64,000 nucleotides of DNA from Chondrosia reniformis (taxonomy: Eukaryota; Porifera; Demospongiae; Chondrillida; Chondrillidae). The DNA lies in contig OX359191.1 in assembly GCA_947172415.1 (NCBI GenBank), forward strand, positions 6,386,001 to 6,450,000. Direction: 5' to 3'. The notes beneath the pieces were generated by a model, which made no database searches, had not been told where the DNA came from, and worked only from the letters and a program-made list of their open reading frames with translations. Position 1 is the stretch's first letter; each line of letters begins with the position of its first letter. The translations under genes and the position numbers were made by a program. Below are positions 1 to 31,655 of this stretch, piece after piece.

Positions 1-122
1 CTCTGTTCAGAAATTAGTGGTAAATATCTATTATTAAGTACTTTATATGTACGTACGTATATACGTATAAATATTCTACATTCTCTATACATATATACAT
101 ACGTACCATTTCACAAATGCAG

Positions 123-3100
123 TAATCAAAACAAGTTCATCAACAGTAAGCAAAGTGTTTACAAGCTCTTCTATCCAAGCTTATCCAAGCTCTACTGGTA
201 TGTAATATAATATATAATAAGGACAATCTGTACTTGAAATGAACTATTGAATACATAATACAGCACACTATGATGAATACAAAGTGTTCTATGTATATTG
301 TTCCCCTCTATTGTGAAACTGCATAGTCAGTTTAATAGACTACATATACAACTTATCACTGGTTAATACTATTCTGCAAGCAAGTAAAGTATAATAATAA
401 ATAATATAGAAGAAATCTATATTAACTGGAGTCCATATTTGTCAATTTAGACAAATATTCACTAATTATGACTGCTTGTCTGGTATAGCATGTGCTCTTG
501 TTTATATTTATAGAAGCTGGCACAGAAGTTTCAACCTCTGCAAAATCTACTGGTACTGTAGTGAGAACACGTACAGCTTCATCTCCTACAGAAGCGGGTA
601 TGTAAATATACATATATAATATACTGTATATCTTATTGTATTCTATTACTAAGAAAGTACTACTCAATATATGTAAAGCTGGTAGTACATGCAGAGCTTT
701 TATACGTATATACGTCTAACTGAACCAAATAAGTCTATATTGAGGCTAAAAATTGGCATGAAAAATCTGAGATACCATTTTCCTATACACTATTCTGTAA
801 AAGAGCCTATAGGGGAACTAAACCTAAAGAGAGCTTTGGATGAAGATACAGGAATTTTTTCTTCCTTCTTTTCCCTTCTTTCATCTTCTGGGTCAGACAG
901 CCGTTTCTGAGAATTCCACCCTTCATCAGTGATCCTGGGAGTCTTTGTCTTTTTCTTTATCTTGATCTTCTGTGACTCCTTGGCATGTAAGGTATTTTTG
1001 TTGTGGTTAGCAAGTGGTTTGTCTATATTCAGACTATATACCATTTACTTTTGTACATACTGTAGAATCTTCAAGACAAGTCACAACCTCTAGGGTGTCT
1101 ACAGCTACTGCAGTGAGAACAGCCAAGGATTCATCAATCCCTATGGCTACTGGTAAAATACTTTCTATTATTTGTATACCTATGAGCTACATACGTATAC
1201 GTATAAACGGTATACTAAATACTATAAACTATACGTATACTGTATATTACACATTTAAGCAATGTGATGTAAATATCTCTCTATAATGCAATACATTTAT
1301 ATAGTGACAGGTGACAGTAAAGTCATGTCATGATAGGTGATTTTAGTAATATTTGATATTTGGCAGCTGCACATGCCTTACTAATATGCTAAAGTATGCA
1401 ATGTATATCCATACGTATGTAGGTTTTGTTTCAATCACCATGACTATGAACTGCACCTAGTTATAAAATAAACCCTAGTTTATAGTCTTAGAAAGAAAAT
1501 GTATCTCTGTAGCTATATTAATAATTTACTTCTTTTTCAAAATTGTTAGTAGTAAATGTAACCAAAGTTGTTTGATATTTAATGACAGTTACTATTATGA
1601 AAATATTTCATGTATGCAAATTTTATACTGTAAGTAGCCTAAAGTATGCATGCTTGAATTGCATGCTTTTCCCAAGGTGATCTTTTTAAAACTGTCGCTA
1701 TCAGAAGAATATTATCGTCTATGCTATGTTTTATTTAGAATCTCTGACACAAGTCACAACTAATGGAGCTACACAAACTACAGAAACGTCTGCTACAGAA
1801 ACTGCTGAAACGTCTGCTACAGAAACTGCAGATAAGACTGCTACAGAAACTGCAGATATGTCTGCTACAGAAACTGCAGATACGTCTGCTATACAACCTT
1901 CCCCTACTCCACCTGGTAGGTTGATTGATATGACTGCTAAGCTTTCAAAGTAAAATCTTTCACACTGTGTACTTCATGCAGTGATCAAATGCGCATCCTT
2001 TAATGAGAACATTGACAATCAAAGATTAAAGACAATCTTCAGCTGGCCAGCAACTCAAGCTGGAGTAGAAGCTCGTCTTCACTGTGATTGCCAAACATAC
2101 CCTCAGTTCAGCAATGGATTGTTTGCCTTTAAGAACTGCAGCAACAGTGGGTTATGGAAGCAGACATACTTGGAACCTTGTGTGGTATCAGACTTCTTTA
2201 AAAGCTTTTGTAGTGGAGTAAGCTACTGAATATGCTTTATAATTAGAGCAAAGGCATAATTTTATATGTATATACGTACGTATGTATATATTGTTGATAA
2301 TTATTCTGAGCATCAGCAACACTTATTGAACAGGTTTGAATTTAGGTCTTCATTAGCATTATTACCAAAATGATATTGCAACAGGTACCCTTAGGATTGC
2401 AACAGGTACCCTTATTATTGCAAGGTGCCTTATTGTTGCAACAGGTACCCTTATTATTGCAACAGGTACCTTATTTCATATGTACGTATATCTGTATGTA
2501 GGTTAATGTAAATGTTTTGGATAATTTGGGGAATCTAGCAAAATCAGCAACCAAAGCAGGCGACATTGGATTGGTGATGAATGTCATTAAAGAATTATTG
2601 TCAGTTGCGAGCAATGTACTCAATCCTCAGGTACAGACCTGCAGACAGTCTTCTAAGCAAACACACTAAACTGTATCATGTGAACAATCTGGAATACCAT
2701 GTTTCGATTAACATGTCTATGTTGTCAAGGAAGTATAAAGAGGATAGATTTTAAAAAAATATTCCTAGACTGGTTACTTGGGGCAAGCCTAAGTGCCTTG
2801 GATGAGGATATCATTGGGCTTTTTCTTTCTTCCACCATTGAGCTAGATAGCTGTATCTAGATATTCCACCGTTCCTCAGTGACCCTGGTAGTCTGTGGCT
2901 TCTTGTTGGCTGACTGTCAGTGACTGTATCATGTGTTCCTTGCTACTAAAATACTATATATATATATAATTACATTATTTATTTATTTATATTATATTAT
3001 TTATATTAGATTACCTTAGTATATTGTAACTTGCACTGTATATATATATAATGTATGATGTATGGTATAACCTTTTTATGCATATATATTACTACAGGTC

Positions 3101-6100
3101 AGAAGCAATATTTTAGATGCACTGGATATAGTCTTATTTGAATCAAAGGACGAAGCATTGGCTGATGCTAGTGTTTTGACACAAGCACCACAGATGTAAG
3201 TAATTATTTTGTAGTTTAGTTCACCTTACTAAACTGACTGTTTATTGTTAACCTTAGCTACAATAAACAAGTGTGGGTGAGAAAACTAATCACAGAATAT
3301 ATAACACAGTATTTAAATTGAGTGAAAAATATACTTATATAATAAGGAATAAAACATGTTCAAAAATTGAGTCTGGGTCAGTTATGGCTGAGCTCTCCAT
3401 TGTCCCAAAGACTGAGGCTGCATTAGCCCACCACATTTCCAAAACCACTGGAGAAGGTAGGGCTTCTTCTTACCTTAGCAGATCTCTGTGACAGTCCAGA
3501 GAGAAAAGTCCTTGGGGAACAAAAGGAAGCAGGGCCAATTACACAACTGGTTTCTACTGCTATATACAGGACTGAAATGGTGGGTGTCCTGTAAAAAGGT
3601 CGTATTTGGCCCTCTTCCTCTCTTCTGCCTGGGTTTCTACAATTCCTGCTTTCCTAGCTGCCTCTACCAGATTAGTTAGGGTGAAAGTGTCAGTGCATGT
3701 TGCGTCCCAACCAGGAGCTTCCCTCTTTACCATGGGACCAAGGTGATTCCATCCAGTTTTTTGTTATTGGACTAATGGTTCTAGATGTGAGGGGATTTGC
3801 AGATGTCAGAGCTCGATGAATGATATCATTCAGAGTGGCATGTCAGTAATGGCATCCAGCACTCCAATGGCAAGATAGACCAAGGGTGGCAAGGCTGTCG
3901 ACTCTTGCTTCACAATGGTGGCAATTGTGAGGTCTATATAATGTAGCACCTAATCAAAGGCCAGCCGCTACATGAACAGTGTTGTCATCCATACGCAGGT
4001 CCAGTGAAGGGACAGGCCATGCTTACAGCCATGCTCCTGATTCTTTGGAAAATGCAGCGAGAGGGCTCTTCTGCCTGAGGCTGCCTCCAAAAGTCCTCTG
4101 CTGTTACTTTGGTAGCATACAAGATCCCAGGACTTCTGTATCTTCATTGACCATTGACCTTCTGGAGGGAGGGAATTGTGCCAATTCTAGGCAGGCAACA
4201 GTAGAGGATACCAGCTGCACCGCTCTTCTGCATGATGACAAGCCCACCAAATTTTACTGAAAGTGTGGCTTGTGTCCAAGCAGGATCTAAAGTTTCTGTA
4301 TCACTGACAATTGCTTTAAGGGCCTGATCATACTCTCTTAGCTTAGAGGAAGAAGCAGGGGGAGGTCTGCAAGCTGTACAATAACTTACTAAGCTTATAT
4401 ATGAGTTATTGTTTCAAGGTCCTTTAATTATTGATAACGAAGCATGGTCTCTTATTAATAAACTATTGTTTTATGGTCTCTTATTAATAAACTATTGTTT
4501 CAATATGGTCTCTTATTGATAGCTTATTCTCCTGTTGATAGATTATTGTTTTATGATCTCTCTTATTGATAGATTTTTGGCTGCCCTCTCATCAGTAGCA
4601 AACCATATACAGTTGTTTGATGACATACTTATTGTTGAGAAAAGGGCATACACGTTTTCAGTTGATGAAATCCAAGTTTCCAAAGTGCCTCCCTCTGGTT
4701 ACAAGCCAAACTTGGGTAATAAGGTTGGTGTGAGTGTCACTATTCCACAAGCAGCGTTCCTAAGCTTGGGGACAAGCAGTGTTCGTATGATCAGTTCTGT
4801 TCTTCATAAACCCACCCTCTTTGATGGAAGCAATGAAGCAGTTTCTGCATTCAGTGATATAATATCGGTCAGGCTCATAGGTGGTAATACAATGGACAAT
4901 CTTGATGATCCTGTAGTTATTGTTGCGCAGAAGTTACAGGTTAGCTATATCAAAATTGTGTACTCAGTAGATGCATGATTATGTACTATTTGTATTCTTT
5001 AAAATTTAGAATTACCTGACTAAAGGAGGCAAAAGTGGTTGTCAGTCATGGAAAACTGAAGATATAAAAGGTACATATATAAGAATCCATGTACAGTATT
5101 ATGATTATATGCCATATTCTAGTAAGGCTCTTGAAATATCAGAGAGTACAGTAGTACTCTCTAAGTAAGGATTACTGGAATATACATGGCTTCCCTATTC
5201 AATATATTATTCACAGCTGTATAATGTATATGTACTTATATAGACACTTAATTGCTGTGATAGGTAGCTAGGTAGTAGTCATACCACATTTGAGTGTGGT
5301 ATGACTGTGGTACTAATTAATATATATCACCTATGACTTGAATCAATTGTAAAGGTGATGATAAGTAAACACAAGTAGGCCTACTGGTGATATAACATTT
5401 ATCACTTGTTCAAGTGTAAAATATAAGGTTTGTAACACCTCAGATATCACCCGGTTGCCCTGGTAACATGATATATTTACGTATTTCGCTAGTTTTAACT
5501 CAATATGTACCTATCTCTAAGAATGACATTCCTAAATTCATAGGTACGGGGTAATTTAACTTCTATTACAGATATATGTATATACATACTTCAATTCATT
5601 CTAAACTAGACATTAACAGAATTATATATTTACAATGCTTCCACCTTTCTTAATTTGTTAAGGTATCTATGGAACATGGAGTGTGGATGGATGTAAACTA
5701 CTAAATGAGAACTTTACTCACATCACCTGTTATTGTGATCACTTTGGAGACTATGCTGCCATCCAGGTTAGCTGGCTTATTTGACTGGGCTGTTTCAAAT
5801 ACGTAATTTGTTACAACGTCTCTTCATGCCAGTTAGCTGATTTATTTGAACGAAGAGTTCTGTAAAATTCTGTAGCTTCTCTTTGTGCAGGTTGTTGACA
5901 CAATGATGTCTGTGAATAACGGTGGTACAGAGCCATCTTCCAGTACAATCATAATAGCAGTAGTCTGTGTTATAGTAGGTCTGATCCTCTTGGCCGCTAT
6001 CATAATTGGAATAAGCTGTTGTGTGCTGAGGTACGTACCTAAGTGACTACAATATACCTACGTACATATGCATATTTTAAATACTATTGTAATAATGATC

Positions 6101-6601
6101 TTAATAAAATTATGAGAATTATTCTAACATGCCAAACTGAGACAGAAAGTAGTAAGGATGGCCCAACCAGTTTTGGGGTTCCCAATCATATAATAATTGC
6201 ATTGAAAGCCTATCTTTCTCCTCTTGGATAGTTAGGGTGGGTGTATTCTCTACAAAGATCTTATTAGCTAATGGGATTTTATGCCTACGATACATGTCAT
6301 AAATACATAGGGTTGGAAATTTATTTACTAGGATATACGTAGAGTAATGCATATGTATAATATATACTGTCTTGTTTAATTGAAATTGAAGGTTACTGGC
6401 TATATTTAAAGGAAAGTACATATATTGATGTGAATACTTGCTTTACTTTTGTAAAATTTTAGAAGAAAGAACAAAAAGAAGGAATCAGATATTGATATTT
6501 TTACTTATGGTGAGTTTAATGAAGATGCTGATACAATGATTACCAATGAAAAGGTTCACTCAGAGTTGGATAAGCAGGTATTTGCTGACACAGAGGCTTA
6601 A
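123..6601 (+). CDS. HormR-GAIN-GPS single-pass membrane protein (copy 1, 5' end outside window)
   Basis: Exons read from GT/AG sites and kept frame: 123-197, 514-597, 1066-1152, 1739-1915, 1982-2217, 2502-2630, 3098-3195, 4573-4939, 5010-5070, 5663-5766, 5891-6030, 6463-6601 (TAA). They total 565 codons with no stop, and all junctions match the paralogue at 25639-31655. The first four exons are phase 1-1 and encode a Ser/Thr-rich stalk; the fourth holds a short TETAxxSA-type repeat. Exon 1982-2217 is a hormone-receptor (HormR) domain with a WPxTxxGxxA core, paired Cys and GLW. Exons 2502-4939 fit a GAIN domain. Exons 5010-5766 give the GPS, with Trp and Cys spacing ending CYCDHFGDY. Exon 5891-6030 encodes one hydrophobic helix followed by RRKNKKK and a tail of about 45 residues. 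Adhesion GPCRs share HormR-GAIN-GPS but continue into seven helices; this gene stops after one. The 5' exons, including any signal peptide, lie before the window. Confidence 0.85.
758..987. repeat. Dispersed repeat family A, copy in intron
   Basis: This stretch of about 230 bp recurs at 53064-53309 with only scattered differences, including the same pyrimidine-rich core and the same end around TGTGA(C/A)TCCTTGG. Weaker relatives lie at about 2760-2905 and 44690-44830, and part of it at about 11230-11290. No coding potential or clear terminal inverted repeats were seen, so the class is unknown. It lies in the intron between the second and third exons of the first GAIN gene. Confidence 0.75.
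2373..2473. repeat. Intronic minisatellite, about 22-bp unit
   Basis: About five tandem copies of a unit like TTGCAACAGGTACCCTTATTA lie just upstream of the acceptor at 2500-2501. Each unit contains CAG|GT, which resembles a splice site, but none is needed for the deduced exons. Confidence 0.8.
3370..4375 (-). mobile_element. Relic of a reverse-transcriptase element (minus strand)
   Basis: Reading the minus strand gives broken coding similarity to the C-terminal part of a family of reverse-transcriptase proteins. The recognisable pieces are a PAW...KFGGL block near the 5' side and a downstream block ending AEERKRAKYDLF. A second relic with the same downstream block, in the form PW...VWDATCPNT, lies at 32440-32650. 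The element is clearly broken with several interruptions and lies in the intron before the large GAIN exon of copy 1. The family assignment (non-LTR more likely than LTR) is from memory of the motif only. Confidence 0.5.
4440..4571 (+). repeat. Tandem repeat abutting a splice acceptor
   Basis: Units of roughly 30 bp starting GGTCTCTTATT and containing TATTGTTT are repeated three to four times and run into the acceptor of the GAIN exon at 4573. The same type of repeat (GGTCTCTTAATGAT) precedes the matching exon at 30039 in the paralogue, so the array predates the gene duplication or has been exchanged between copies. Confidence 0.7.
5135..5211 (+). repeat. Short dispersed element, AGAGAGTAC family
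   Basis: Starts ATATCAGAGAGTAC, has an inverted match AGTACTCTCT soon after, then AAGTAAGGATTACTGG. Related copies lie at 33958-34009 (reverse), 34607-34667 and 41606-41690. The short inverted repeat and repeated occurrence suggest a small MITE. Confidence 0.55.
5277..5306. repeat. Perfect 12-bp inverted repeat with 6-base loop
   Basis: AGTCATACCACA at 5277-5288 is exactly complementary to 5295-5306, separated by TTTGAG. It lies in the intron between the exons ending 5070 and starting 5663. Confidence 0.8.
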
Positions 6602-11643: not shown

Positions 11644-14600
11644 ATGGGATGCTTGCGATCAATCGAGGCGTTCCCTTTGCAGTTTGTAGCGGGAATCATT
11701 CTAACAGGTAGTCAGAGATATAATTATTTGAGTAACCGAACAGGGACGACGTTTTCTAAATCTTTCCAGGTTGCATTACGACTGTAATTTCAAGTCTTGA
11801 AAACGGCAACGGTGAGTGCTAAATACATTTTGAGGAAGGCATACTTCTGCTATAAGATAAATGTTCTTGTAGTACATGGTGTCTTTTGTTTTCCTGATTA
11901 TACTAAAAATGTCTATAGTACGTCTTGCTGATGGCAATGGCTTTTCCAGCGGTCGTTTAGAAGTTTATTACAACGGAGACTGGGGCACAGTGTGTGATGA
12001 TGGGTGGGACTTCAATGATGGTAATGTCGTGTGCAGACAACTTGGATTTAGAGATGCCATTGCAGTATATACTAACTCTCATTTTGGTGGTGGATCTGGA
12101 AATATATTGTTGGATGAAGTAAATTGCACAGGAAGTGAAAGTAGAATATCTGATTGTTCTCATGATGGATGGGGAGTAGAGGATTGTTTTAATGAATTTG
12201 AAGCTGCTGGAGTAGAATGTGGAGGTAAGTAAACAGCAATGTACACTCCTTTCAATATTGTTATGCATTAACCGTTGATACTTCAGATCTTGGAGCATGT
12301 AGAAATGTGAACTGTGCTAACGGAGGAACTTGCTCAGCTGGAAACTGTACATGTGTGGAAGGATATAGAGGAGATCGGTGCACTGAACTAGACAGTGAGT
12401 TGTTGTGTATATAGCATCAATATTGTGGTTAGTTTAAGATTATTATTTTACACCTCAGTTAAGGTACGTCTGGTTGATGGAGATGCTAGCAGTGGTCGAG
12501 TTGAGATTCTATATGATGGAGACTGGGGCACAGTGTGTGATGATGGGTGGGACCTCGATGATGGTATTGTCGTGTGCAGACAACTTGGATTTAGAGATGC
12601 CATTGCAGTATATACTAACTCTCATTTTGGTGGTGGATCTGGAAATATATTGTTGGATGAAGTAAATTGCACAGGAAGTGAAAGTAGAATATCTGATTGT
12701 TTTCATGATGGATGGGGAGTAGAGGATTGTATAGATGAATTTGAAGCTGCTGGAGTAGAATGTGGAGGTTAGTAAACAGAAACGTACACTCCTTACGATA
12801 TTGTTATGCATTAACCGTTGATACTTTAGATCTTGGAGCATGTAGAAATGTGAACTGTGCTAACGGAGGAACTTGCTCGGCTGGAAACTGTACATGTGTG
12901 GAAGGATATAAAGGAGATCGGTGCACTGAACTAGACAGTGAGTTGCTGTGTATACAGCATCAATATTGTGGTTAGTTGAAGATTATTATTTTACACCTCA
13001 GTCAAGGTACGTCTGGTTGATGGAGATGCTAGCAGTGGTCGAGTTGAGGTCCTGTATGATGGAGACTGGGGCACAGTGTGTGATGATGAGTGGGACCTGG
13101 ATGATGGTAATGTCGTGTGCAGACAACTTGGGTTTAGAGATGCCATTGCAGTATATACTAACTCTCATTTTGGTGGTGGATCTGGAAATATATTGTTGGA
13201 TGAAGTAAATTGCACAGGAAGTGAAAGTAGAATATCTGATTGTTCTCATGATGGATGGGGAGTAGAGGATTGTATAGATGAATTTGAAGCTGCTGGAGTA
13301 GAATGTGGAGGTAAGTAAACAGCAATGTACACTCCTTACGATTTTGTTATGCCTTAATCGTTGATACTTCAGATCTTGGAGCATGTAGAAATGTGAACTG
13401 TGCTAATGGAGGAACTTGCTCGGCTGGAAACTGTACATGTGTGGAAGGATATAGAGGAGATCGGTGCACTGAACTAGACAGTGAGTTGCTGTGTATACAG
13501 CATCATTATTGTGGTTAGTTGAAGATTATTATTTTACACCTCAGTCAAGGTACGTCTGGTTGATGGAGATGCTAGCAGTGGTCGAGTTGAGATTCTATAT
13601 GATGGAGACTGGGGCACAGTGTGTGATGATGGGTGGGACCTCGATGATGGTAATGTCGTGTGCAGACAACTTGGATTTAGAGATGCCATTGCAGTATATA
13701 CTAACTCTCATTTTGGTGGTGGATCTGGAAATATATTGTTAGATGAAGTAAATTGCACAGGAAGTGAAAGTAGAATATCTGATTGTTCTCATGATGGATG
13801 GGGAGTAGAGGATTGTATAGATGAATTTGAAGCTGCTGGAGTAGAATGTGGAGGTAAGTAAACAGTAATGTACACTCCTTACAATATTGTTATGCATTAA
13901 CCGTTGATACTTCAGATCTTGGAGCATGTAGAAATGTGAACTGTGCTAACGGAGGAACTTGCTCGGCTGGAAACTGTACATGTGTGGAAGGATATAAAGG
14001 AGATCGGTGCACTGAACTAGACAGTGAGTTGCTGTGTATACAGCATCAATATTGTGGTTATTTTAAGATTATTATTTTACACCTCAGTTAAGGTACGTCT
14101 GGTTGATGGAGATGCTAGCAGTGGTCGAGTTGAGATTCTATATGATGGAGACTGGGGCACAGTGTGTGATGATGAGTGGGACCTCGATGATGGTAATGTC
14201 GTGTGCAGACAACTTGGATTTAGAGATGCCATTGCAGTATATACTAACTCTCATTTTGGTGGTGGATCTGGAAATATATTGTTGGATGAAGTAAATTGCA
14301 CAGGAAGTGAAAGTAGAATATCTGATTGTTCTCATGATGGATGGGGAGTAGAGGATTGTTTTAATGAATTTGAAGCTGCTGGAGTAGAATGTGGAGGTAA
14401 GTAAACAGCAATGTACACTCCTTACGATTTTGTTATGCCTTAATCGTTGATACTTCAGATCTTGGAGCATGTAGAAATGTGAACTGTGCTAATGGAGGAA
14501 CTTGCTCGGCTGGAAACTGTACATGTGTGGAAGGATATAGAGGAGATCGGTGCACTGAACTAGACAGTGAGTTGCTGTGTATACAGCATCATTATTGTGG

Positions 14601-17600
14601 TTAGTTGAAGATTATTATTTTACACCTCAGTTAAGGTACGTCTGGTTGATGGAGATGCTAGCAGTGGTCGAGTTGAGGTCCTGTATGATGGAGACTGGGG
14701 CACAGTGTGTGATGATGGGTGGGACCTCGATGATGGTATTGTCGTGTGCAGACAACTTGGATTTAGAGATGCCATTGCAGTATATACTAACTCTCATTTT
14801 GGTGGTGGATCTGGAAATATATTGTTGGATGAAGTAAATTGCACAGGAAGTGAAAGTAGAATATCTGATTGTTCTCATGATGGATGGGGAGTAGAGGATT
14901 GTATAGATGAATTTGAAGCTGCTGGAGTAGAATGTGGAGGTTAGTAAACAGAAACGTACACTCCTTACGATATTGTTATGCATTAACCGTTGATACTTTA
15001 GATCTTGGAGCATGTAGAAATGTGAACTGTGCTAACGGAGGAACTTGCTCGGCTGGAAACTGTACATGTGTGGAAGGATATAAAGGAGATCGGTGCACTG
15101 AACTAGACAGTGAGTTGCTGTGTATACAGCATCATTATTGTGGTTAGTTGAAGATTATTTTTATATACCTCAGTCAAGGTACGTCTGGTTGATGGAGATG
15201 CTAGCAGTGGTCGAGTTGAGGTCCTGTATGATGGAGACTGGGGCACAGTGTGTGATGATGAGTGGGACCTCGATGATGGTAATGTCGTGTGCAGACAACT
15301 TGGATTTAGAGATGCCATTGCAGTATATACTAACTCTCATTTTGGTGGTGGATCTGGAAATATATTGTTGGATGAAGTAAATTGCACAGGAAGTGAAAGT
15401 AGAATATCTGATTGTTCTCATGATGGATGGGGAGTAGAGGATTGTATAGATGAATTTGAAGCTGCTGGAGTAGAATGTGGAGGTTAGTAAACAGAAACGT
15501 ACACTCCTTACGATATTGTTATGCATTAACCGTTGATACTTTAGATCTTGGAGCATGTAGAAATGTGAACTGTGCTAACGGAGGAACTTGCTCGGCTGGA
15601 AACTGTACATGTGTGGAAGGATATAGAGGAGATCGGTGCACTGAACTAGACAGTGAGTTGCTGTGTATATAGCATCATTATTGTGGTTAGTTGAAGATTA
15701 TTTTTATATACCTCAGTCAAGGTACGTCTGGTTGATGGAGATGCTAGCAGTGGTCGAGTTGAGGTCCTGTATGATGGAGACTGGGGCACAGTGTGTGATG
15801 ATGAGTGGGACCTCGATGATGGTAATGTCGTGTGCAGACAACTTGGATTTAGAGATGCCATTGCAGTATATACTAACTCTCATTTTGGTGGTGGATCTGG
15901 AAATATATTGTTGGATGAAGTAAATTGCACAGGAAGTGAAAGTAGAATATCTGATTGTTCTCATGATGGATGGGGAGTAGAGGATTGTATAGATGAATTT
16001 GAAGCTGCTGGAGTAGAATGTGGAGGTTAGTAAACAGAAACGTACACTCCTTACGATATTGTTATGCATTAACCGTTGATACTTTAGATCTTGGAGCATG
16101 TAGAAATGTGAACTGTGCTAACGGAGGAACTTGCTCGGCTGGAAACTGTACATGTGTGGAAGGATATAAAGGAGATCGGTGCACTGAACTAGACAGTGAG
16201 TTGCTGTGTATACAGCATCATTATTGTGGTTAGTTGAAGATTATTTTTATATACCTCAGTCAAGGTACGTCTGGTTGATGGAGATACTAGCAGTGGTCGA
16301 GTTGAGGTCCTGTATGATGGAGACTGGGGCACAGTGTGTGATGATGAGTGGGACCTCGATGATGGTAATGTCGTGTGCAGACAACTTGGATTTAGAGATG
16401 CCATTGCAGTATATACTAACTCTCATTTTGGTGGTGGATCTGGAAATATATTGTTGGATGAAGTAAATTGCACAGGAAGTGAAAGTAGAATATCTGATTG
16501 TTCTCATGATGGATGGGGAGTAGAGGATTGTATAGATGAATTTGAAGCTGCTGGAGTAGAATGTGGAGGTTAGTAAACAGAAACGTACACTCCTTACGAT
16601 ATTGTTATGCATTAACCGTTGATACTTTAGATCTTGGAGCATGTAGAAATGTGAACTGTGCTAACGGAGGAACTTGCTCGGCTGGAAACTGTACATGTGT
16701 GGAAGGATATAGAGGAGATCGGTGCACTGAACTAGACAGTGAGTTGCTGTGTATACAGCATCATTATTGTGGTTAGTTGAAGATTATTTTTATATACCTC
16801 AGTCAAGGTACGTCTGGTTGATGGAGATGCTAGCAGTGGTCGAGTTGAGGTCCTGTATGATGGAGACTGGGGCACAGTGTGTGATGATGAGTGGGACCTC
16901 GATGATGGTAATGTCGTGTGCAGACAACTTGGATTTAGAGATGCCATTGCAGTATATACTAACTCTCATTTTGGTGGTGGATCTGGAAATATATTGTTGG
17001 ATGAAGTAAATTGCACAGGAAGTGAAAGTAGAATATCTGATTGTTCTCATGATGGATGGGGAGTAGAGGATTGTTTTAATGAATTTGAAGCTGCTGGAGT
17101 AGAATGTGGAGGTAAGTAAACAGCAATGTACACTCCTTACGATTTTGTTATGCCTTAATCGTTGATACTTCAGATCTTGGAGCATGTAGAAATGTGAACT
17201 GTGCTAATGGAGGAACTTGCTCGGCTGGAAACTGTACATGTGTGGAAGGATATAGAGGAGATCGGTGCACTGAACTAGACAGTGAGTTGCTGTGTATACA
17301 GCATCATTATTGTGGTTAGTTGAAGATTATTTTTATATACCTCAGTCAAGGTACGTCTGGTTGATGGAGATGCTAGCAGTGGTCGAGTTGAGGTCCTGTA
17401 TGATGGAGACTGGGGCACAGTGTGTGATGATGGGTGGGACCTCGATGATGGTATTGTCGTGTGCAGACAACTTGGATTTAGAGATGCCATTGCAGTATAT
17501 ACTAACTCTCATTTTGGTGGTGGATCTGGAAATATATTGTTGGATGAAGTAAATTGCACAGGAAGTGAAAGTAGAATATCTGATTGTTCTCATGATGGAT

Positions 17601-20600
17601 GGGGAGTAGAGGATTGTATAGATGAATTTGAAGCTGCTGGAGTAGAATGTGGAGGTTAGTAAACAGAAACGTACACTCCTTACGATATTGTTATGCATTA
17701 ACCGTTGATACTTTAGATCTTGGAGCATGTAGAAATGTGAACTGTGCTAACGGAGGAACTTGCTCGGCTGGAAACTGTACATGTGTGGAAGGATATAGAG
17801 GAGATCGGTGCACTGAACTAGACAGTGAGTTGCTGTGTATACAGCATCATTATTGTGGTTAGTTGAAGATTATTATTTTACACCTCAGTCAAGGTACGTC
17901 TGGTTGATGGAGATGCTAGCAGTGGTCGAGTTGAGGTCCTGTATGATGGAGACTGGGGCACAGTGTGTGATGATGGGTGGGACCTCGATGATGGTATTGT
18001 CGTGTGCAGACAACTTGGATTTAGAGATGCCATTGCAGTATATACTAACTCTCATTTTGGTGGTGGATCTGGAAATATATTGTTGGATGAAGTAAATTGC
18101 ACAGGAAGTGAAAGTAGAATATCTGATTGTTCTCATGATGGATGGGGAGTAGAGGATTGTATAGATGAATTTGAAGCTGCTGGAGTAGAATGTGGAGGTT
18201 AGTAAACAGAAACGTACACTCCTTACGATATTGTTATGCATTAACCGTTGATACTTTAGATCTTGGAGCATGTAGAAATGTGAACTGTGCTAACGGAGGA
18301 ACTTGCTCGGCTGGAAACTGTACATGTGTGGAAGGATATAAAGGAGATCGGTGCACTGAACTAGACAGTGAGTTGCTGTGTATATATACAGCATCATTAT
18401 TGTGGTTAGTTAAAGATTATTTTTATATACCTCAGTTAAGGTACGTCTGGTTGATGGAGATGCTAGCAGTGGTCGAGTTGAGGTCCTGTATGATGGAGAC
18501 TGGGGCACAGTGTGTGATGATGAGTGGGACCTGGATGATGGTAATGTCGTGTGCAGACAACTTGGATTTAGAGATGCCATTGCAGTATATACTAACTCTC
18601 ATTTTGGTGGTGGATCTGGAAATATATTGTTGGATGAAGTAAATTGCACAGGAAGTGAAAGTAGAATATCTGATTGTTCTCATGATGGATGGGGAGTAGA
18701 GGATTGTATAGATGAATTTGAAGCTGCTGGAGTAGAATGTGGAGGTTAGTAAACAGAAACGTACACTCCTTACAATATTGTTATGCATTAACCGTTGATA
18801 CTTCAGATCTTGGAGCATGTAGAAATGTGAACTGTGCTAACGGAGGAACTTGCTCGGCTGGAAACTGTACATGTGTGGAAGGATATAAAGGAGATCGGTG
18901 CACTGAACTAGACAGTGAGTTGCTGTGTATATAGCATCAATATTGTGGTTAGTTTAAGATTATTATTTTACACCTCAGTTAAGGTACGTCTGGTTGATGG
19001 AGATGCTAGCAGTGGTCGAGTTGAGATTCTTTATGATGGAGACTGGGGCACAGTGTGTGATGATGAGTGGGACCTCGATGATGGTAATGTCGTGTGCAGA
19101 CAACTTGGGTTTAGAGATGCCATTGCAGTATATACTAACTCTCATTTTGGTGGTGGATCTGGAAATATATTGTTGGATGAAGTAAATTGCACAGGAAGTG
19201 AAAGTAGAATATCTGATTGTTCTCATGATGGATGGGGAGTAGAGGATTGTATAGATGAATTTGAAGCTGCTGGAGTAGAATGTGGAGGTTAGTAAACAGA
19301 AACGTACACTCCTTACAATATTGTTATGCATTAACCGTTGATACTTCAGATCTTGGAGCATGTAGAAATGTGAACTGTGCTAACGGAGGAACTTGCTCGG
19401 CTGGAAACTGTACATGTGTGGAAGGATATAAAGGAGATCGGTGCACTGAAATAGACAGTGAGTTGTGCATGGATATTGTAAATTCTTTGATATAGAAATC
19501 CAATTCTCTTTCATGTCTCAGTTAAAGTACGCCTTGCTGATGGCAATTCAAGTAGTGGTCGAGTTGAGGTTCTGTACAGCGGAGAATGGGGCACAGTGTG
19601 TGACGATGGGTGGGACATCAATGATGGTAACGTAGTCTGCAGAGAACTTGGCTATGACACTGCCAGTGGTGTGTTTGGGAATGCTCATTTTGGAGTAGGC
19701 ACTGGAACCATATGGCTGGATGATGTGGCTTGCACTGGCAGTGAAGATAAGCTATCTAACTGTTCACATAACGGTTGGGGTATTCAAAACTGTCAGCATT
19801 CAGAAGATGCTGGAGTGACTTGTGGAAGTTAGTCCATCAAGCCTTTCTCAGTTAACTGTAAATTGAAGTTTTCTGTACTTTACACTTTAGCTAATGCATG
19901 TAGTGGTGTGAACTGTGCTAACGGAGGAACCTGTGTAAATGGAAACTGCACATGTGTGGAAGGATATAAAGGAGATCGATGCACTGAACTAGACAGTGAG
20001 TTGTGCATGGATATTGTAAATTCTTTGATATAGAAATCCAATTCTCTTTCATGTCTCAGTTAAAGTACGCCTTGCTGATGGCAATTCAAGTAGTGGTCGA
20101 GTTGAGGTACTGTACAACGGAGAATGGGGCACAGTGTGTGATGATGGGTGGGACATCAATGATGGCAGAGTAGTCTGCAGAGAACTTGGCTATGACACTG
20201 CCAGTGGTGTGTTTGCAAATGCTCATTTTGGAGAAGGCACTGGAACCATTTGGTTGGATGATGTGGCTTGCACTGGCAGTGAAGATAAGCTATCTAACTG
20301 TTCACATAACGGTTGGGGTATTCAAAACTGTAACCATTTCGAAGATGCTGGAGTGACTTGTGGAAGTTAGTCCATCAAGCCTTTCTCAGTTACCTGTAAA
20401 TTAAAGTTTTCTGTACTTTACACTTTAGGTAATGCATGTAGTGGTGTGAACTGTGCTAACGGAGGAACCTGTGTAAATGGAAACTGCACATGTGTGGAAG
20501 GATATAAAGGAGATCGATGCACTGAACTAGACAGTGAGTTGTGCATGGATATATTGTGAATTCTTTGATATAGAAATCCAATTCTCTTTCATGTCTCAGT

Positions 20601-23600
20601 TAAAGTACGCCTTGCTGATGGCAATTCAAGTAGTGGTCGAGTTGAGGTACTGTACAACGGAGAATGGGGCACAGTGTGTGACGATGGGTGGGACATCAAT
20701 GATGGTAACGTAGTCTGCAGAGAACTTGGCTATGACACTGCCAGTGGTGTGTTTGGGAATGCTCATTTTGGAGTAGGCACTGGAACCATATGGCTGGATG
20801 ATGTGGCTTGCACTGGCAGTGAAGATAAGCTATCTAACTGTTCACATAACGGTTGGGGTATTCAAAACTGTCAGCATTCAGAAGATGCTGGAGTGACTTG
20901 TGGAAGTTAGTCCATCAAGCCTTTCTCAGTTAACTGTAAATTGAAGTTTTCTGTACTTTACACTTTAGCTAATGCATGTAGTGGTGTGAACTGTGCTAAC
21001 GGAGGAACCTGTGTAAATGGAAACTGCACATGTGTGGAAGGATATAAAGGAGATCGATGCACTGAACTAGACAGTGAGTTGTGCATGGATATTGTAAATT
21101 CTTTGATATAGAAATCCAATTCTCTTTCATGTCTCAGTTAAAGTACGCCTTGCTGATGGCAATTCAAGTAGTGGTCGAGTTGAGGTTCTGTACAATGGAG
21201 AATGGGGCACAGTGTGTGACGATGGGTGGGACATCAATGATGGTAACGTAGTCTGCAGAGAACTTGGCTATGACACTGCCAGTGGTGTGTTTGCGAATGC
21301 TCATTTTGGAGAAGGCACTGGAACCATATGGCTGGATGATGTGGCTTGCACTGGCAGTGAAGATAAGCTATCTAACTGTTCACATAACGGTTGGGGTATT
21401 CAAAACTGTAACCATTTCGAAGATGCTGGAGTGACTTGTGGAAGTTAGTCCATCAAGCCTTTTCTCAGTTAACTGTAAATTAAAGTTTTCTGTACTTTAC
21501 ACTTTAGGTAATGCATGTAGTGGTGTGAACTGTGCTAATGGAGGAACTTGCTCGGCTGGAAACTGCACATGTGTGGAAGGATATAAAGGAGATCGATGCA
21601 CTGAACTAGACAGTGAGTTGTGCATGGATATTGTGAATTCTTTGATATAGAAATCCAATTCTCTTTCATGTCTCAGTTAAAGTACGCCTCTCTGATGGCA
21701 ATTCAAGTAGTGGTCGAGTTGAGGTTCTGTACAACGGAGAATGGGGCACAGTGTGTGACGATGGGTGGGACATCAATGATGGTAACGTAGTCTGCAGAGA
21801 ACTTGGCTATGACACTGCCAGTGGTGTGTTTGGGAATGCTCATTTTGGAGAAGGCACTGGAACCATATGGCTGGATGATGTGGCTTGCACTGGCAGTGAA
21901 GATAAGCTATCTAACTGTTCACATAACGGTTGGGGTATTCAAAACTGTAACCATTTCAAAGATGCTGGAGTGACTTGTGGAAGTTAGTCCATCAAGCCTT
22001 TTCTCAGTTAACTGTAAATTAAAGTTTTCTGTACTTTACACTTTAGGTAATGCATGTAGTGGTGTGAACTGTGCTAATGGAGGAACTTGCTCGCCTGGAA
22101 ACTGCACATGTGTGGAAGGATATAAAGGAGATCGATGCACTGAACTAGACAGTGAGTTGTGCATGGATATTGTGAATTCTTTGATATAGAAATCCAATTC
22201 TCTTTCATGTCTCAGTTAAAGTACGCCTCTCTGATGGCAATTCAAGTAGTGGTCGAGTTGAGGTTCTGTACAACGGAGAATGGGGCACAGTGTGTGACGA
22301 TGGGTGGGACATCAATGATGGTAACGTAGTCTGCAGAGAACTTGGCTATGACACTGCCAGTGGTGTGTTTGCGAATGCTCATTTTGGAGAAGGCACTGGA
22401 ACCATATGGCTGGATGATGTGGCTTGCACTGGCAGTGAAGATAAGCTATCTAACTGTTCACATAACGGTTGGGGTATTCAAAACTGTCAGCATTCTGAAG
22501 ATGCTGGAGTGACTTGTGGAAGTTAGTCCATCAAGCCTTCTCAGTTAACTGTAAATTAAAGTTTTCTGTACTTTACACTTTAGGTAATACAAGTTGTAGT
22601 GATGTGAACTGTGCTAACGGAGGAACTTGCTCGGCTGGAAACTGCACATGTGTGGAAGGATATAAAGGAGATCGATGCACTGAACTAGACAGTAAGTTGT
22701 GCATGGATATTGTGAATTCTTTGATATAGAAATCCAATTCTCTTTCATGTCTCAGTTAAAGTACGCCTCTCTGATGGCAATTCAAGTAGTGGTCGAGTTG
22801 AGGTTCTGTACAACGGAGAATGGGGCACAGTGTGTGACGATGGGTGGGACATCAATGATGGTAACGTAGTCTGCAGAGAACTTGGCTATGACACTGCCAG
22901 TGGTGTGTTTGGGAATGCTCATTTTGGAGAAGGCACTGGAACCATATGGCTGGATGATGTGGCTTGCACTGGCAGTGAAGATAATCTATCTAATTGTTCA
23001 CATAACGGTTGGGGTATTCAAAACTGTAACCATTTCGAAGATGCTGGAGTGACTTGTGGAAGTTAGTCCATCAAGCCTTTTCTCAGTTAACTGTAAATTA
23101 AAGTTTTCTGTACTTTACACTTTAGGTAATGCATGTAGTGGTGTGAACTGTGCTAACGGAGGAACCTGTGTAGATGGAAACTGCACATGTGTGGAAGGAT
23201 ATAAAGGAGATCGGTGCACTGAACTAGACAGTGAGTTGTGCATGGATATTGTGAATTCTTTGATATAGAAATCCAATTCTCTTTCATGTCTCAGTTAAAG
23301 TACGCCTCTCTGATGGCAATTCAAGTAGTGGTCGAGTTGAGGTTCTGTACAACGGAGAATGGGGCACAGTGTGTGACGATGGGTGGGACATCAATGATGG
23401 CAGAGTAGTCTGCAGAGAACTTGGCTATGACACTGCCAGTGGTGTGTTTGCGAATGCTCATTTTGGAGAAGGCACTGGAACCATTTGGTTGGATGATGTG
23501 GCATGTACTGGCAGTGAAGATAAGCTATCTAATTGTTCACATAACGGTTGGGGTATTCAAAACTGTAACCATTTCGAAGATGCTGGAGTGACTTGTGGAA

Positions 23601-24588
23601 GTTAGTCCATCAAGCCTTTTCTCAGTTACCTGTAAATTAATGTTTGCTGTACTTTTCACTTTAGGTAATACAAGTTGTAGTGATGTGAACTGTGCTAATG
23701 GAGGAACCTGTGTAGACGGAAACTGCACATGTGTGGAAGGATATAAAGGAGATCGTTGTACTGAACTAGACAGTGCGTTGTGGAATAAGCATAGTGTTTT
23801 ATTCAATAGAAACATCACAATTTTTAATTATTTTTAATTCATTAATGGATGTATTTTTTGTTTTCTATTCAGTCAAATTGAGACTAGCTGGTGGATCTAC
23901 TGCTTCTGAAGGTAGAGTAGAAATACTCTACAACGGTCAGTGGGGAACAGTGTGTGATGACCATTGGGACTATAATGATGCAAAAGTTGTATGTCAACAA
24001 CTTGGATGGCCTGATGCTGTTTCAGCTGTACAGGGTTCATCTCGTTTTGGACAAGGTAGTGGCACTATATGGCTTGATGATGTAGCCTGCAGTGGTGAGG
24101 AATCTTTATTGAGTGACTGTCGTCATCTTGGTTGGAGTGTTCACAATTGTGGTCACACAGAAGATGCTGGAGTTGTGTGTGCTGGTGAGATTTATAACTA
24201 CTTATATACTTTATGTCCATATTAGCAGAAGTAATTTTACTGTATACCTGTGGTTCTTTCACATACAGTTCCTGTCCGCCTAGTAAATGGAAATGGTAAT
24301 TCTTCTGGTAGAGTTGAAGTATATTTTAACTCTGAATGGGGCACAGTATGTGATGATGGTTGGGATTTAAATGATGCTACAGTTGTTTGTAAACAGCTTG
24401 GTTTTGAAGGTGCAGTCAGTGCTACAGTTGAAGCCCATTTTGGTGTTGGATCTGGTACAATTGGGCTTGATAATGTTAATTGCATTGGGAATGAGTCTAG
24501 CATTTTAGATTGTAGCCGTAATATTTGGGGTAGTCATGATTGTCAACACAAAGAGGATGCTGGAGTGGAGTGCAGAAATCAAGGCTAG
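11644..24588 (+). CDS. Secreted SRCR-EGF tandem-repeat protein (24 SRCR, 22 EGF)
   Basis: ATG at 11644 in a good context (CAAGATGG) opens a signal peptide split over 11644-11707 and 11770-11811, with a hydrophobic core [13 protein letters not shown] and EGF exons then alternate, all phase 1-1. SRCR1 is 11919-12224 and EGF1 12287-12394. SRCR2-14 are 309 bp each, from 12459-12767 to 18979-19287. EGF2-14 are 108 bp each, ending 19457. SRCR15-22 are 306 bp each (19522-19827 to 23295-23600). EGF15-22 are 105 or 108 bp each (19891-19995 to 23665-23772). SRCR23 is 23873-24184. SRCR24 is 24269-24588, ending TAG. Summed exons are 9867 bp, exactly 3289 codons. Each SRCR has six Cys (group A pattern) and the acidic DD..WD motif; each EGF has six Cys. 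No membrane helix follows, so a secreted product is expected. SRCR proteins act in ligand and pathogen recognition and adhesion; the ligand here is unknown. Copy number could be affected by assembly. Confidence 0.88.
12459..19457 (+). repeat. Tandem array type I: 13 SRCR-EGF units, period about 543 bp
   Basis: Each unit is a 309-bp SRCR exon, a short intron, a 108-bp EGF exon and a second short intron. From 14631 to 17889 successive SRCR starts are exactly 543 bp apart. Introns are as similar as exons: units starting at 15174 and 15717 differ at only a few positions. Variants recur in combinations (WDLDDGN or WDLDDGI; EDCID or EDCFN), showing exchange among units. The unit at 18436 starts 4 bp late because of an extra TATA in the preceding intron. 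Confidence 0.92.
19522..23772 (+). repeat. Tandem array type II: 8 SRCR-EGF units, period about 539 bp
   Basis: Units start at 19522, 20060, 20600, 21138, 21677, 22216, 22756 and 23295. The SRCR carries the canonical ending (QHSEDAG or NHFEDAG), unlike the EFEAAG of type I, and its WGIQNC segment is constant. QHSE and NHFE forms alternate in the first four units, suggesting an older two-unit duplication of about 1078 bp. EGF exons share a near-identical [12 protein letters not shown] segment with type I although the SRCR exons and introns differ. Confidence 0.92.
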
Positions 24589-25638: not shown

Positions 25639-28209
25639 GATTATCCACATATATTGGAAGTGGAACAAGTAGACAGCCTTCTGCTACTCCAGGATTATCC
25701 ACATATATCAGAAGTGGAACAAGTGAACAGCTTTCTGCTACTCCAGGATTATCCACATATATTGGAAGTGGAACAAGTAGACAGCCTTCTGCTACTCCAG
25801 GATTATCCACATATATTGGAAGTGGAACAAGTAGACAGCCTTCTGCTACTCCAGGATTATCCACATATATTAGAAGTGGAACAAGTGAACTGCCTTCTGC
25901 TACTCCAGGATTATCCACATATATTAGAAGTGGAACAAGTGAACAGCCTTCTGCTACTCCAAGATTATCCACATATATTGGAAGTGGAACAAGTAGACAG
26001 CCTTCTGCTACTCTAGGATTATCCACATATATTGGAAGTGGAACAAGTGAACAGCCTTCTGCTACTCCAGGATTATCCACATATATTGGAAGTGGAACAA
26101 GTGAACAGCCTTCTGCTACTCCAGGATTATCTACATATATTGGAAGTGGAACAAGTAGACAGCCTTCTGCTACTCTAGGATTATCCACATATATTAGAAG
26201 TGGAACAAGTGAACAGCCTTCTGCTACTCCAAGATTATCCACATATATTGGAAGTGGAACAAGTAGACAGCCTTCTGCTACTCTAGGATTATCCACATAT
26301 ATTAGAAGTGGAACAAGTGAACAGCCTTCTGATACTCCAAGATTATCCACATATATTGGAAGTGGAACAAGTAGACAGCCTTCTGCTACTCTAGGATTAT
26401 CCACATATATTAGAAGTGGAACAAGTGAACAGCCTTCTGCTACTCCAAGATTATCCACATATATTGGAAGTGGAACAAGTAGACAGCCTTCTGCTACTCC
26501 AGGATTATCCACATATATTGGAAGTGGAACAAGTGAACAGCCTTCTGATACTCCAAGATTATCCACATATATTAGAAGTGGAATAAGTGAACTTCCTTCT
26601 GCTACTCCAGAAACATCTACAAATACTGAAACTGGAACAAGTGAAATTCCTTCTGCTACTCCAGAAAAATCTGCAAATACTGGAATTGGAACAAGTGAAC
26701 AGCCTTCTGCTACTCCAGAAAAATCTGCAAATACTGAAACTGGAACAAGTGAACAGCCTTCTGCTACTCCAGAAACATCTACGAATACTGAAACTCGAAC
26801 AAGTGAACTTCCTTCTGCTACTCCAGAAACATCTATGAATACTGGAACTGGAACAAGTGAAATTCCTTCTGCTACTCCAGAAACATCTATGAATACTGGA
26901 ACTGGAACAAGTGAAATTCCTTCTGCTACTCCAGAAACATCTGCAAATACTGGAAGTGGAACTAGTGAACAGCCTTCTGCTACTCCAGAAACATCTACGA
27001 ATACTGGAAGTGGAACAAGTGAACTTCCTTCTGCTACTCCAGAAACATCTACGAATACTGGAACAAGTGAACTGCCTTCTGCTACTCCAGAAACATCTAC
27101 GAATACTGGAAGTGGAACAATTGAACAGCCTTCTGCTACTCTAGAAACATCTACGAATACTGGAACTGGAACAAGTAAACTTCCTTCTGCTACTCCAGAA
27201 ACATCTACGAATACTGGAACTGGAACAAGTGAACTTCCTTCTGCTACTCCAGAAACATCTACGAATACTGGAACAAGTAAACTGCCTTCTGCTACTCTAG
27301 AAACATCTACAAATACTGGAACTCAAACAAGTGAACAGCCTTCTGCTACTCCAGAAACATCTACGAATACTGGAACAAGTGAACTGCCTTCTGCTACTCC
27401 AGAAACATCTACGAATACTGGAACTGGAACAAGTGAACAGCCTTCTGCTACTCTAGAAACATCTACGAATACTGGAAGTGGAACTAGTGAACAGCCTTCT
27501 GCTACTCTAGAAACATCTACGAATACTGGAAGTGGAACTAGTGAACAGCCTTCTGCTACTCGAGAAACATCTACGAATACTGGAAGTGGAACTAGTAAAC
27601 TGCCTTCTGCTACTCTAGAAACATCTACAAATACTGGAACTCAAACAAGTGAACAGCCTTCTGCTACTCCAGAAACATCTACGAATACTGGAACAAGTGA
27701 ACAGCCTTCTGCTACTCTAGAAACATCTACGAATACTGGAAGTGAAACAAGTGAACAGCCTTCTGCTACTCCAGAAACATCTAAGAATACTGGAAGTGGA
27801 ACAAGTGAACAGCCTTCTGCTACTCCAGAAACATCTACGAATACTGGAACTCGAACAAGTGAACTTCCTTCTGCTACTCTAGAAACATCTACAAATACTG
27901 GAAGTGAAACAAGTGAACAGCCTTCTGCTACTCGAGAAACATCTACGAATACTGGAACTCGAACAAGTGAACTTCCTTCTGCTACTCTAGAAACATCTAC
28001 AAATACTGGAAGTGAAACAAGTGAACAGCCTTCTGCTACTCCAGAAACATCTAAGAATACTGGAAGTGGAACAAGTGAACAGCCTTCTGCTACTCCAGAA
28101 ACATCTACAAATACTGGAAATGGAACAAGTGAACTTCCTTCTGCTACTCCAGAAACATCTACAAATACTGGAAGTGGAACAAGTGAACTTCCTTCTGCTA
28201 CTTCAACTG
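25639..28209 (+). repeat. Mucin-like VNTR, 48 units of 54 (some 48) bp
   Basis: Eighteen type-A units (LSTYI(G/R)SGTS(R/E)QPSATP-like) run from 25639 to about 26602. They are followed by thirty type-B units (TSTNTGSGTSEQPSATPE-like); four of these are two codons shorter. Most units are 18 residues and rich in Thr, Ser and Pro, as in O-glycosylated stalks. The shared GTS-x-x-PSAT core shows A and B have one origin. Larger blocks repeat too: the RTSELPSATLETS / SETSEQPSAT pair occurs twice near 27850-28030. Confidence 0.93.
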
Positions 28210-31200: not shown

Positions 31201-31655
31201 CCATCCAGGTTAGCTGGCTTATTTGACTGGGATGTTTCAAATAATCTGTTACAACTTCTCTTCATGCAGATTAAAGACACTATGGCTTTTGTGGGCACTG
31301 ATGTAGGAGAAGAATTTCCTTCTACAATTGTAGCTATTGTTTGTGTTGTAGCTGTTCTTATAATAATAGCTGCTGTTGTAGCAGGAATAATTTGTCTTGT
31401 TTTGAGGTAAATATATTTCATTTTAACACATTTAGTGAAGGCAGGCACTACACCATATATTAACATATGTATACAGTGCATAATGGCTAGCTATTTCCCT
31501 TTTAAAAATTTAGAAGGAAAAGCCATCGAAAGAAGGCTCAACCAGTTACTGATCATGAAGAATGTGAATTCAAGGCGAATCCAGATGTGATGTTTACTAA
31601 TGAAAAAGCTACTATAGAACTAGATCAGCATGGAATTGCTGATTCAGAGGCATAA
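25639..31655 (+). CDS. HormR-GAIN-GPS single-pass membrane protein with mucin stalk (copy 2)
   Basis: Exons: 25639-28209, 28269-28352, 28418-28653, 29042-29170, 29811-29908, 30039-30399, 30511-30571, 31105-31208, 31270-31406, 31514-31655 (TAA). From the phase-1 start they give 1307 codons including the stop, with no internal stop. Exon lengths 236, 129, 98, 61 and 104 are identical to copy 1. The first exon is a 48-unit mucin-like stalk; then come a short Thr-rich exon, HormR, GAIN, a GPS ending CYCDHFGDY, one hydrophobic helix (IVAIVCVVAVLIIIAAVVAG) and a basic-start tail. The GPS lacks the Ser/Thr that follows the cut in self-cleaving family members. The start is uncertain. The acceptor at 25637-25638 keeps frame, but reading is also open further 5' to a TTG at 25575. 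No signal-peptide exon was found, so the 5' end may lie in the gap or come from the SRCR-EGF gene. Confidence 0.85.
29342..29422. repeat. Imperfect hairpin of about 80 bp
   Basis: TTAGATGGAG at the left pairs with CTCCATCTAA at the right, and pairing continues inward with mismatches for about 28 bp. It lies in the intron between exons 29042-29170 and 29811-29908. Could be a tiny MITE. Confidence 0.55.
29435..29712 (-). mobile_element. DNA transposon remnant with HTH-like N-terminus
   Basis: On the minus strand a short reading frame contains SYDVSFKLKAVKC followed by AAAREIGVDAKR. This resembles the psq/Brinker-type DNA-binding start of some transposases. The plus-strand edges (AATAGAGATCCAGGCC and CTCTATACAGACAAATATGG) resemble a fragment at about 56738-56792. 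It is only a fragment; no catalytic domain is present. Confidence 0.45.
30754..31008 (-). repeat. Dispersed repeat family B, reverse copy
   Basis: The reverse complement begins AACAAGTATTTTGAGTTTAA and ends in GTCCGCCATTTTG. The copy at 37540-37740 begins ACAAGTATTTCGAGTTTAA and ends GCCGCCATTTGC. Interiors are diverged. Class unknown. It lies in the intron before the GPS exon at 31105. Confidence 0.6.

Follow-up and report, generated by a model that had tools for sequence, protein, structure and literature searches.

Two receptor genes in the window

The stretch of DNA analyzed here (the window) comprises 64,000 nucleotides of the sponge Chondrosia reniformis and corresponds to bases 6386001-6450000 of contig OX359191.1 (C3) of assembly GCA_947172415.1. 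It contains two genes, which we named A and B, each of which is predicted to encode a HormR-GAIN-GPS module. In both, a single, strongly hydrophobic helix comes next, and the predicted coding sequence then runs through about 45 tail residues to a stop codon. The whole assembly (117,379,552 bases, 15 contigs) was searched; the published genome, odChoReni1.1, is described as 117.37 Mb in 14 chromosomes plus the mitochondrion (PMC12181767). For both genes, eight exons running from HormR to the stop codon were modelled, and these are given below together with the upstream parts.

Gene A
1-19 (+): last 19 bases of an EGF exon, read by eye; phase 1, donor gtaaat
123-197, 514-597, 1066-1152 and 1739-1915 (+): Ser/Thr-rich stalk, four exons, all phase 1 to 1
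1982-2217 (+): HormR exon (model, HRM match, HormR profile)
2502-2630, 3098-3195 and 4573-4939 (+): GAIN exons (model, profile)
5010-5070 and 5663-5766 (+): pre-GPS and GPS exons; site DHFGDY, without Ser/Thr
5891-6030 (+): exon for the linker and the single transmembrane helix (model, hydropathy)
6463-6601 (+): cytoplasmic tail exon, stop TAA (model, selection test)

Gene B
11918-24583 (+): SRCR/EGF array ahead of the gene (tblastn, 24 SRCR and 22 EGF matches)
25639-28209 and 28269-28352 (+): Ser/Thr-rich stalk (open-frame chain), the first part being a 2571-nt exon of 54-nt tandem units
28418-28653 (+): HormR exon (model, HRM match, HormR profile)
29042-29170, 29811-29908 and 30039-30399 (+): GAIN exons (model, profile)
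30511-30571 and 31105-31208 (+): pre-GPS and GPS exons; site DHFGDY
31270-31406 (+): exon for the linker and the single transmembrane helix (model, hydropathy)
31514-31655 (+): cytoplasmic tail exon, stop TAA (model, selection test)

From HormR to stop, the introns are GT-AG in 7/7 cases for gene A and in 7/7 for gene B. The exon lengths of A and B are 236/236, 129/129, 98/98, 367/361, 61/61, 104/104, 140/137 and 139/142 nt, and the intron phases are the same in all eight exons.

A third copy, C (locus L015), is located upstream of the window at C3 6355623-6358588, and its phases are kept in 8/8 exons. Two further genes, D (L013) and E (L014), are present on chromosome 10 and share 45% and 44% identity with A, respectively. 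For the first seven exons they were modelled with the phases of A and near-equal lengths, except for the pre-GPS exon of D, whose call at 52 nt versus 61 is uncertain. Because the search for D and E required A's phases, part of the phase agreement follows from the search itself; exon lengths were allowed to vary within 0.75-1.35. The tails of D and E were picked by weak scores (10 and 16) and were not relied on. All five models, A to E, have open frames. An AATAAA or ATTAAA signal is located 334 bases past the stop codon of A and 593 past that of C, and none was found within 700 bases past the stop of B or past the in-frame stop of the SRCR array discussed below.

Domain identity of the membrane-proximal part

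Pfam GPS matched A with 29.4 bits and B with 31.1 bits, both above the cut-off of 22.5, and Pfam HRM matched A (E 1.5e-4, 22.5 bits) and B (E 2.4e-4, 21.9 bits) below its cut-off of 26.2. Taking the models of A to E together, GPS was detected in 5/5 and HRM in 5/5. Pfam GAIN gave no match in A or B, nor anywhere in the genome, the seven-transmembrane (7TM) genes included, and this family is therefore uninformative here. No Pfam match to REJ, PLAT or PKD domains was obtained in the five HormR-to-helix models, three of which included the tail, or in the part of the upstream exons that was scanned (five peptides).

We then compared profiles with the sequences of solved structures. A profile of the five models gave 29 matches at E up to 1, in which adhesion G protein-coupled receptors (GPCRs) took the first 11 places; further down the ranking, designed helical repeats, syntaxin-1A, sodium-channel beta subunits and Vpu were also matched, through helical and membrane parts. 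A GAIN-B profile of 13 exons gave eight matches in the PDB at E up to 10, all eight of them adhesion GPCRs and six at E <=0.0022. A HormR profile of 18 exons gave 47 matches at E up to 1, with class-B hormone receptors first: the glucagon receptor (from E 6.6e-7) was followed by the GIP, PTH and CRF receptors, and complement C2 (E 0.03-0.05) was an outsider. Judged by these profiles, A and B have a GAIN domain with a GPS next to the membrane, and they carry the ectodomain signature of class-B hormone receptors.

These results agree with the original prediction in that both copies were said to have the order HormR, GAIN, GPS, and the agreement of exon lengths and phases that it reported holds for A and B, with all eight phases equal, the phase agreement extending to C. 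The Pfam check that it had proposed is clear for GPS, falls short of the cut-off for HRM and says nothing for GAIN. Its account was correct for the membrane-proximal end; the locus had been started at 1982, overlooking the stalk, which places the gene start further upstream, and the SRCR/EGF array ahead of it.

A family of single-helix genes in the genome

Of the 92 GPS exons in the genome, 61 are followed by a 7tm_2 match at a distance of up to 6 kb; the other 31 are not. For these 31, the sequence analyzed was the window itself (A and B), 10 kb around each of 20 loci and 2 kb around each of nine. A single-helix exon was found in 23 of the 31. Most comparisons below take 22 loci (A, B and the 20); L041, from the 2-kb set, makes 23, and the remaining eight are L033-L040. 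Among these, L038 and L040 are followed by clear 7TM relatives and L039 by a weak one, despite the lack of a 7tm_2 match; L034 has a TM1-like match, and L033, L035, L036 and L037 were counted with neither class.

The HormR profile detected 19 of the 22 single-helix loci at E <1e-3, the others being L030-L032. The GAIN-B profile detected 14 of the 22 at E <=1.2e-5 and none of eight 7TM control loci, for which only 1.5 kb upstream was available and the best value was 0.027. In a second subfamily, formed by L020, L021 and L041, the tail is about 75 residues long and ends in a stop codon, and the tails of L020 and L021 are 52% identical. The tail motif NE[KS][AV]..E[LIM], a pattern made after seeing the sequences, fits 5/23 loci (A, B, L020, L021 and L041). 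The tail of copy C reads NEKAIEL, which lies outside this pattern; a looser form used for searching gave one reverse-strand match. A tree of GAIN-B plus GPS, in which the 7TM control L004 is wrongly tagged 1TM, has weak forks and long branches that meet, is unrooted, and places L019 beside the 7TM rows; nothing was drawn from it.

Search for a seven-helix block downstream

None of the 95 7tm_2 matches listed for the genome, where 150 of 153 candidates were scored, is located on the + strand of C3. We also compared reads of 5.4-6 kb after the GPS, in frames of at least 40 residues, with those of the eight control 7TM loci. The controls found each other through their downstream reads in 8/8 cases. 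Among the 22 single-helix loci, 16, including A, B, C, D and E, had no match to the control reads, and no 7TM homologue was found by this comparison within 6 kb after A and B. The other six (L021, L026 and L029-L032) gave 25 matches, the best pair of each being made up of pieces of what resembles a dispersed intron repeat. Judged by these searches, A and B have no seven-helix (7tm_2) domain after the GPS, and splicing of A or B into a 7TM block was rejected on the grounds that neither a 7tm_2 match nor a 7TM relative was found downstream while the controls were recovered in full.

A segment with a mean hydropathy of 2.78-3.77 follows the GPS in 22/22 loci; L041 likewise has one of 3.69, which brings the number to 23.

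The dispersed repeat is also present in the window at about 740-980. It occurs in introns of L021, L026 and L029-L032, and its translation recurs near several of these genes.

Selection on core, helix and tail

The ratio of non-synonymous to synonymous rates (dN/dS) was calculated by NG86; for A versus B, the alignments of linker plus helix and of tail are short (45 codons each). Between A and B, dN/dS was 0.37 for the core (synonymous distance, dS, 0.31), 0.33 for linker plus helix (dS 1.34) and 0.24 for the tail (dS 1.96). Between A and C it was 0.34 for the core and 0.34 for the helix, the tail being saturated in dS. B and C (core 0.42, helix 0.71, tail 1.29, the last from one synonymous and five other changes) are too close to judge. 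The A-B values point to purifying selection on helix and tail, within the limits of these short alignments, and a recent truncation of A or B was rejected on the basis of the A-B range of 0.24-0.37.

The synonymous distance between A and B is 0.31 in the HormR-GAIN-GPS core and 1.3-2.0 in the helix and tail exons. Because it is lower in the core, it suggests that gene conversion may have homogenized the core of A and B.

The original prediction held that one helix and a short tail with a matching stop make up a stable design and not a truncation. This is borne out: helix, tail and stop are kept in A, B and C, the exon models and the selection between A and B favour it, and the 7TM block that would have spoken against it, reached by splicing past the last exon, was not found downstream of A and B. 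The count of two was too low, given copy C and the wider family, and the suggestion of an ancestral class finds no backing in a weakly supported, unrooted tree of GAIN-B plus GPS.

Ectodomains

SRCR and EGF matches were found upstream of A, B, C, D and E by tblastn. The array of A is located upstream of the window (L011-L012) and has 19 SRCR pieces, one of which is cut by the locus border. Three of three SRCR exons tested with Pfam scored far above the cut-off (74.7-105.5 bits versus 26.1), and both EGF exons given to Pfam matched EGF families near their cut-offs.

An open exon chain reaches the stop codon from the EGF exon in C, from the first stalk exon in A and from the stalk in B. Phase-1 GT-AG introns join EGF, stalk and HormR in C, and stalk and HormR in A and B. 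In D, an SRCR exon is joined straight to the HormR exon by such an intron; in C, the chain begins at the EGF exon behind an SRCR exon; in A, the SRCR part was assigned by order and phase. A simple scan found no start exon with a signal peptide between the SRCR array and the stalk of B. The stalks are 141 (A), 885 (B) and 1273 (C) residues long, and that of B consists of 20% Ser and 24% Thr.

Two side observations concern these regions. Within a coding exon of gene B there is a tandem array of 54-nt units (25643-28202, 47.9 copies), while the stalk exon of C is longer (3735 nt) and A has only short stalk exons, so that stalk length is very variable. At 24584-24588, a candidate GC donor directly precedes a TAG codon, a possible switch between secreted and membrane forms by exon choice.

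GPS site and a common intron position

GPS cleavage follows the rule that HL precedes Ser or Thr. The site is DHFGDY (HF-G) in A, B and C and DHLGVF (HL-G) in D. Because the Ser/Thr nucleophile is missing, a loss that the original prediction had overlooked, the GPS of A, B and C is probably uncleaved, with the two halves covalently joined. Some known adhesion GPCRs are not cleaved either, so that a missing nucleophile is not decisive for class. Ser or Thr is present at the place after H-x in 19/23 single-helix loci (15 HL[ST], 1 HFT and 3 HAT; the site of L019 was read by eye), and these may be cleaved.

A possible phase-0 donor is located at the ninth codon after the GPS His in 18/23 single-helix loci and in 6/8 7TM controls, with four of six consensus bases required and several loci having other candidates too. 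It was not found in L018, L019 and L030-L032, nor in controls L001 and L004, both of which have later donors. This common phase-0 position suggests that a shared intron was the site of a swap or a loss, without giving its direction.

Other frames in the window

Three more frames lie in the window.

38953-41289 (+): single-exon frame of 778 codons, which we take to be a candidate multicopper oxidase with a C-terminal helix
59221-60777 (-): 518-codon frame resembling a pogo/Tigger-type transposase (candidate name)
63332-64000 (+): candidate frame resembling the start of a seven-helix receptor, which runs off the window

Discussion

Because the 7TM domain is missing, these genes can be read as dedicated single-pass recognition or adhesion receptors of the sponge that act without G proteins and whose SRCR ectodomain would sit on a base formed by GAIN, and we consider this reading probable. 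From outside to inside, the protein would consist of the SRCR/EGF array, a Ser/Thr-rich mucin-like stalk, HormR, GAIN with GPS, one helix and a short tail. The array would bind microbes, matrix or other cells, HormR-GAIN would serve as the membrane-proximal base, and the receptor would act by adhesion and through tail or membrane partners. Some sponge SRCR genes are reported to respond to microbial molecules (PMC6208332). For ADGRE2, a version with one transmembrane segment (1TM) is reported to reach the surface, and another, built on the PDGFR helix, to be efficiently cleaved; according to the same report, it was not possible to measure how far the 1TM form is cleaved (PMC12488864). The origin that seems most likely to us is that a seven-helix and a single-helix gene exchanged their 3' ends at the phase-0 intron just after the tethered-agonist strand.

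Several points weigh against this reading. The function it assigns to the single-helix receptors is read from the names of their domains, and the gene models were built from genomic DNA. The GAIN-B profile misses eight of the 22 single-helix loci, whose scores do not exceed those of the controls. The two classes overlap in hydrophobicity and are not told apart by it alone (2.93 in the 7TM control L004, 2.78 in the single-helix loci L027-L029), and further segments above 2.2, in some frame, occur within 1.5 kb in 7/22 loci (L014, L020, L021, L025, L026, L027 and gene B). Tail and stop are backed by comparison only in A, B, C, L020, L021 and L041 (6/23 loci). The last SRCR exon of B, from 24269, meets an in-frame TAG at 24586-24588; the array of B may be a separate gene, or it may need the GC donor at 24584 or exon skipping. 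Finally, when ADGRE2 is competent for cleavage, the fraction that is not cleaved is reported to stay in the endoplasmic reticulum (PMC12488864), which does not favour uncleaved receptors at the surface.

Alternatively, the single-helix proteins could be co-receptors that pair through their ectodomains with the sponge's 7TM adhesion GPCRs and tune their signalling, which we consider unlikely. The 1TM isoforms of Drosophila Cirl are reported to act in this way and offer a precedent (PMC13197933), the genome has potential partners in the 61 GPS exons with a 7tm_2 match, and six of the eight 7TM controls share the possible intron at the GPS end. However, the GAIN-B profile separates 14 of the 22 loci from the controls (E 0.027 or worse), so that pairing by close homology is not obvious; the profile fails in the other eight single-helix loci as well.

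It is also rather doubtful that these are adhesion or decoy proteins without signalling of their own, in which the tail would do no more than anchor and sort the product, and this would act in trans on neighbouring cells or matrix. The long stalk of variable length would suit such a role, and C. elegans LAT-1 is reported to work without its 7TM domain, GPS cleavage not being strictly needed (PMC11540312). Comparison of A with B, however, indicates purifying selection on the tail over 45 codons, and a similar tail motif is present in two subfamilies (the post hoc pattern in 5/23 loci), both of which suggest a function inside the cell; between B and C the tail shows no constraint over 40 codons, a pair too close to judge. 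That the genes are remnants of adhesion GPCRs, truncated or decayed, whose 7TM part was lost recently or missed, is very improbable: Pfam does miss some 7TM blocks (L038, L040 and, weakly, L039), but the frames of A-E are open, dN/dS between A and B is 0.24-0.37, A, B and C have tail and stop in common, and a comparison that works for 8/8 controls turns up nothing downstream of any of the five.

Returning to dedicated single-pass recognition receptors, we tentatively propose, as a possibility held with less confidence, that they constitute a third dedicated GAIN family beside adhesion GPCRs and PKD1-like proteins. It would be expanded in the sponge to about a quarter of the GPS exons, its seven-helix end exchanged for a one-helix end at the shared phase-0 intron, and the similar tail motif in two subfamilies would suggest a cytoplasmic adaptor of its own. 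We found no earlier description of this single-helix sponge GAIN family in the open-licence literature, as far as the texts available there go. In a survey of Halichondria panicea, 57 GPS receptors are reported, counted only together with a 7tm domain (PMC8242945), a criterion that would miss single-helix genes.

Comparison with known systems

The closest likeness in domain order is to adhesion GPCRs (class B2), especially latrophilins (ADGRL) and ADGRG, which like A and B have HormR before GAIN and the GPS pattern W..GC..C.C.H; the solved ADGRL1, ADGRL3, ADGRG1, G2 and G6 were among the profile matches to the sponge single-helix models. The sponge genes differ in having one helix and a short tail in place of the seven-helix domain, and a predicted SRCR/EGF/mucin-like ectodomain, and A, B, C and D differ from cleavable adhesion GPCRs in lacking Ser/Thr at the GPS. 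SRCR repeats on an adhesion-GPCR-type sponge protein, as predicted here, are described for Aq712029 and Aq715659 of Amphimedon queenslandica (Krishnan 2014, PMC4302439); by that description these were classed by 7tm_2, whereas the Chondrosia genes have none.

The 1TM Cirl isoforms of Drosophila likewise carry an adhesion-GPCR ectodomain on one helix, but they are described as isoforms of a 7TM gene (PMC13197933), whereas the Chondrosia proteins come from separate genes without a 7TM part. The sea urchin proteins SpREJ1, 8 and 9 of the PKD1 family resemble them in being encoded by dedicated genes with a GPS followed by one predicted helix; their ectodomain is of REJ type, and neither HormR nor an SRCR array is among the features described in that report (PMC1934368). 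HRM outside GPCRs is also reported in non-GPCR transmembrane proteins of Fonticula alba, for which the account does not mention GAIN (PMC12716839).

Genes with HormR-GAIN-GPS on one helix could serve as natural experiments in which what GAIN does in adhesion or mechanics can be told apart from signalling through G proteins, and they would come in two kinds, those whose GPS is expected not to cleave and those with a canonical GPS. With the 1TM Cirl isoforms and one-helix SpREJ as precedents, the Chondrosia genes would represent a further variant.

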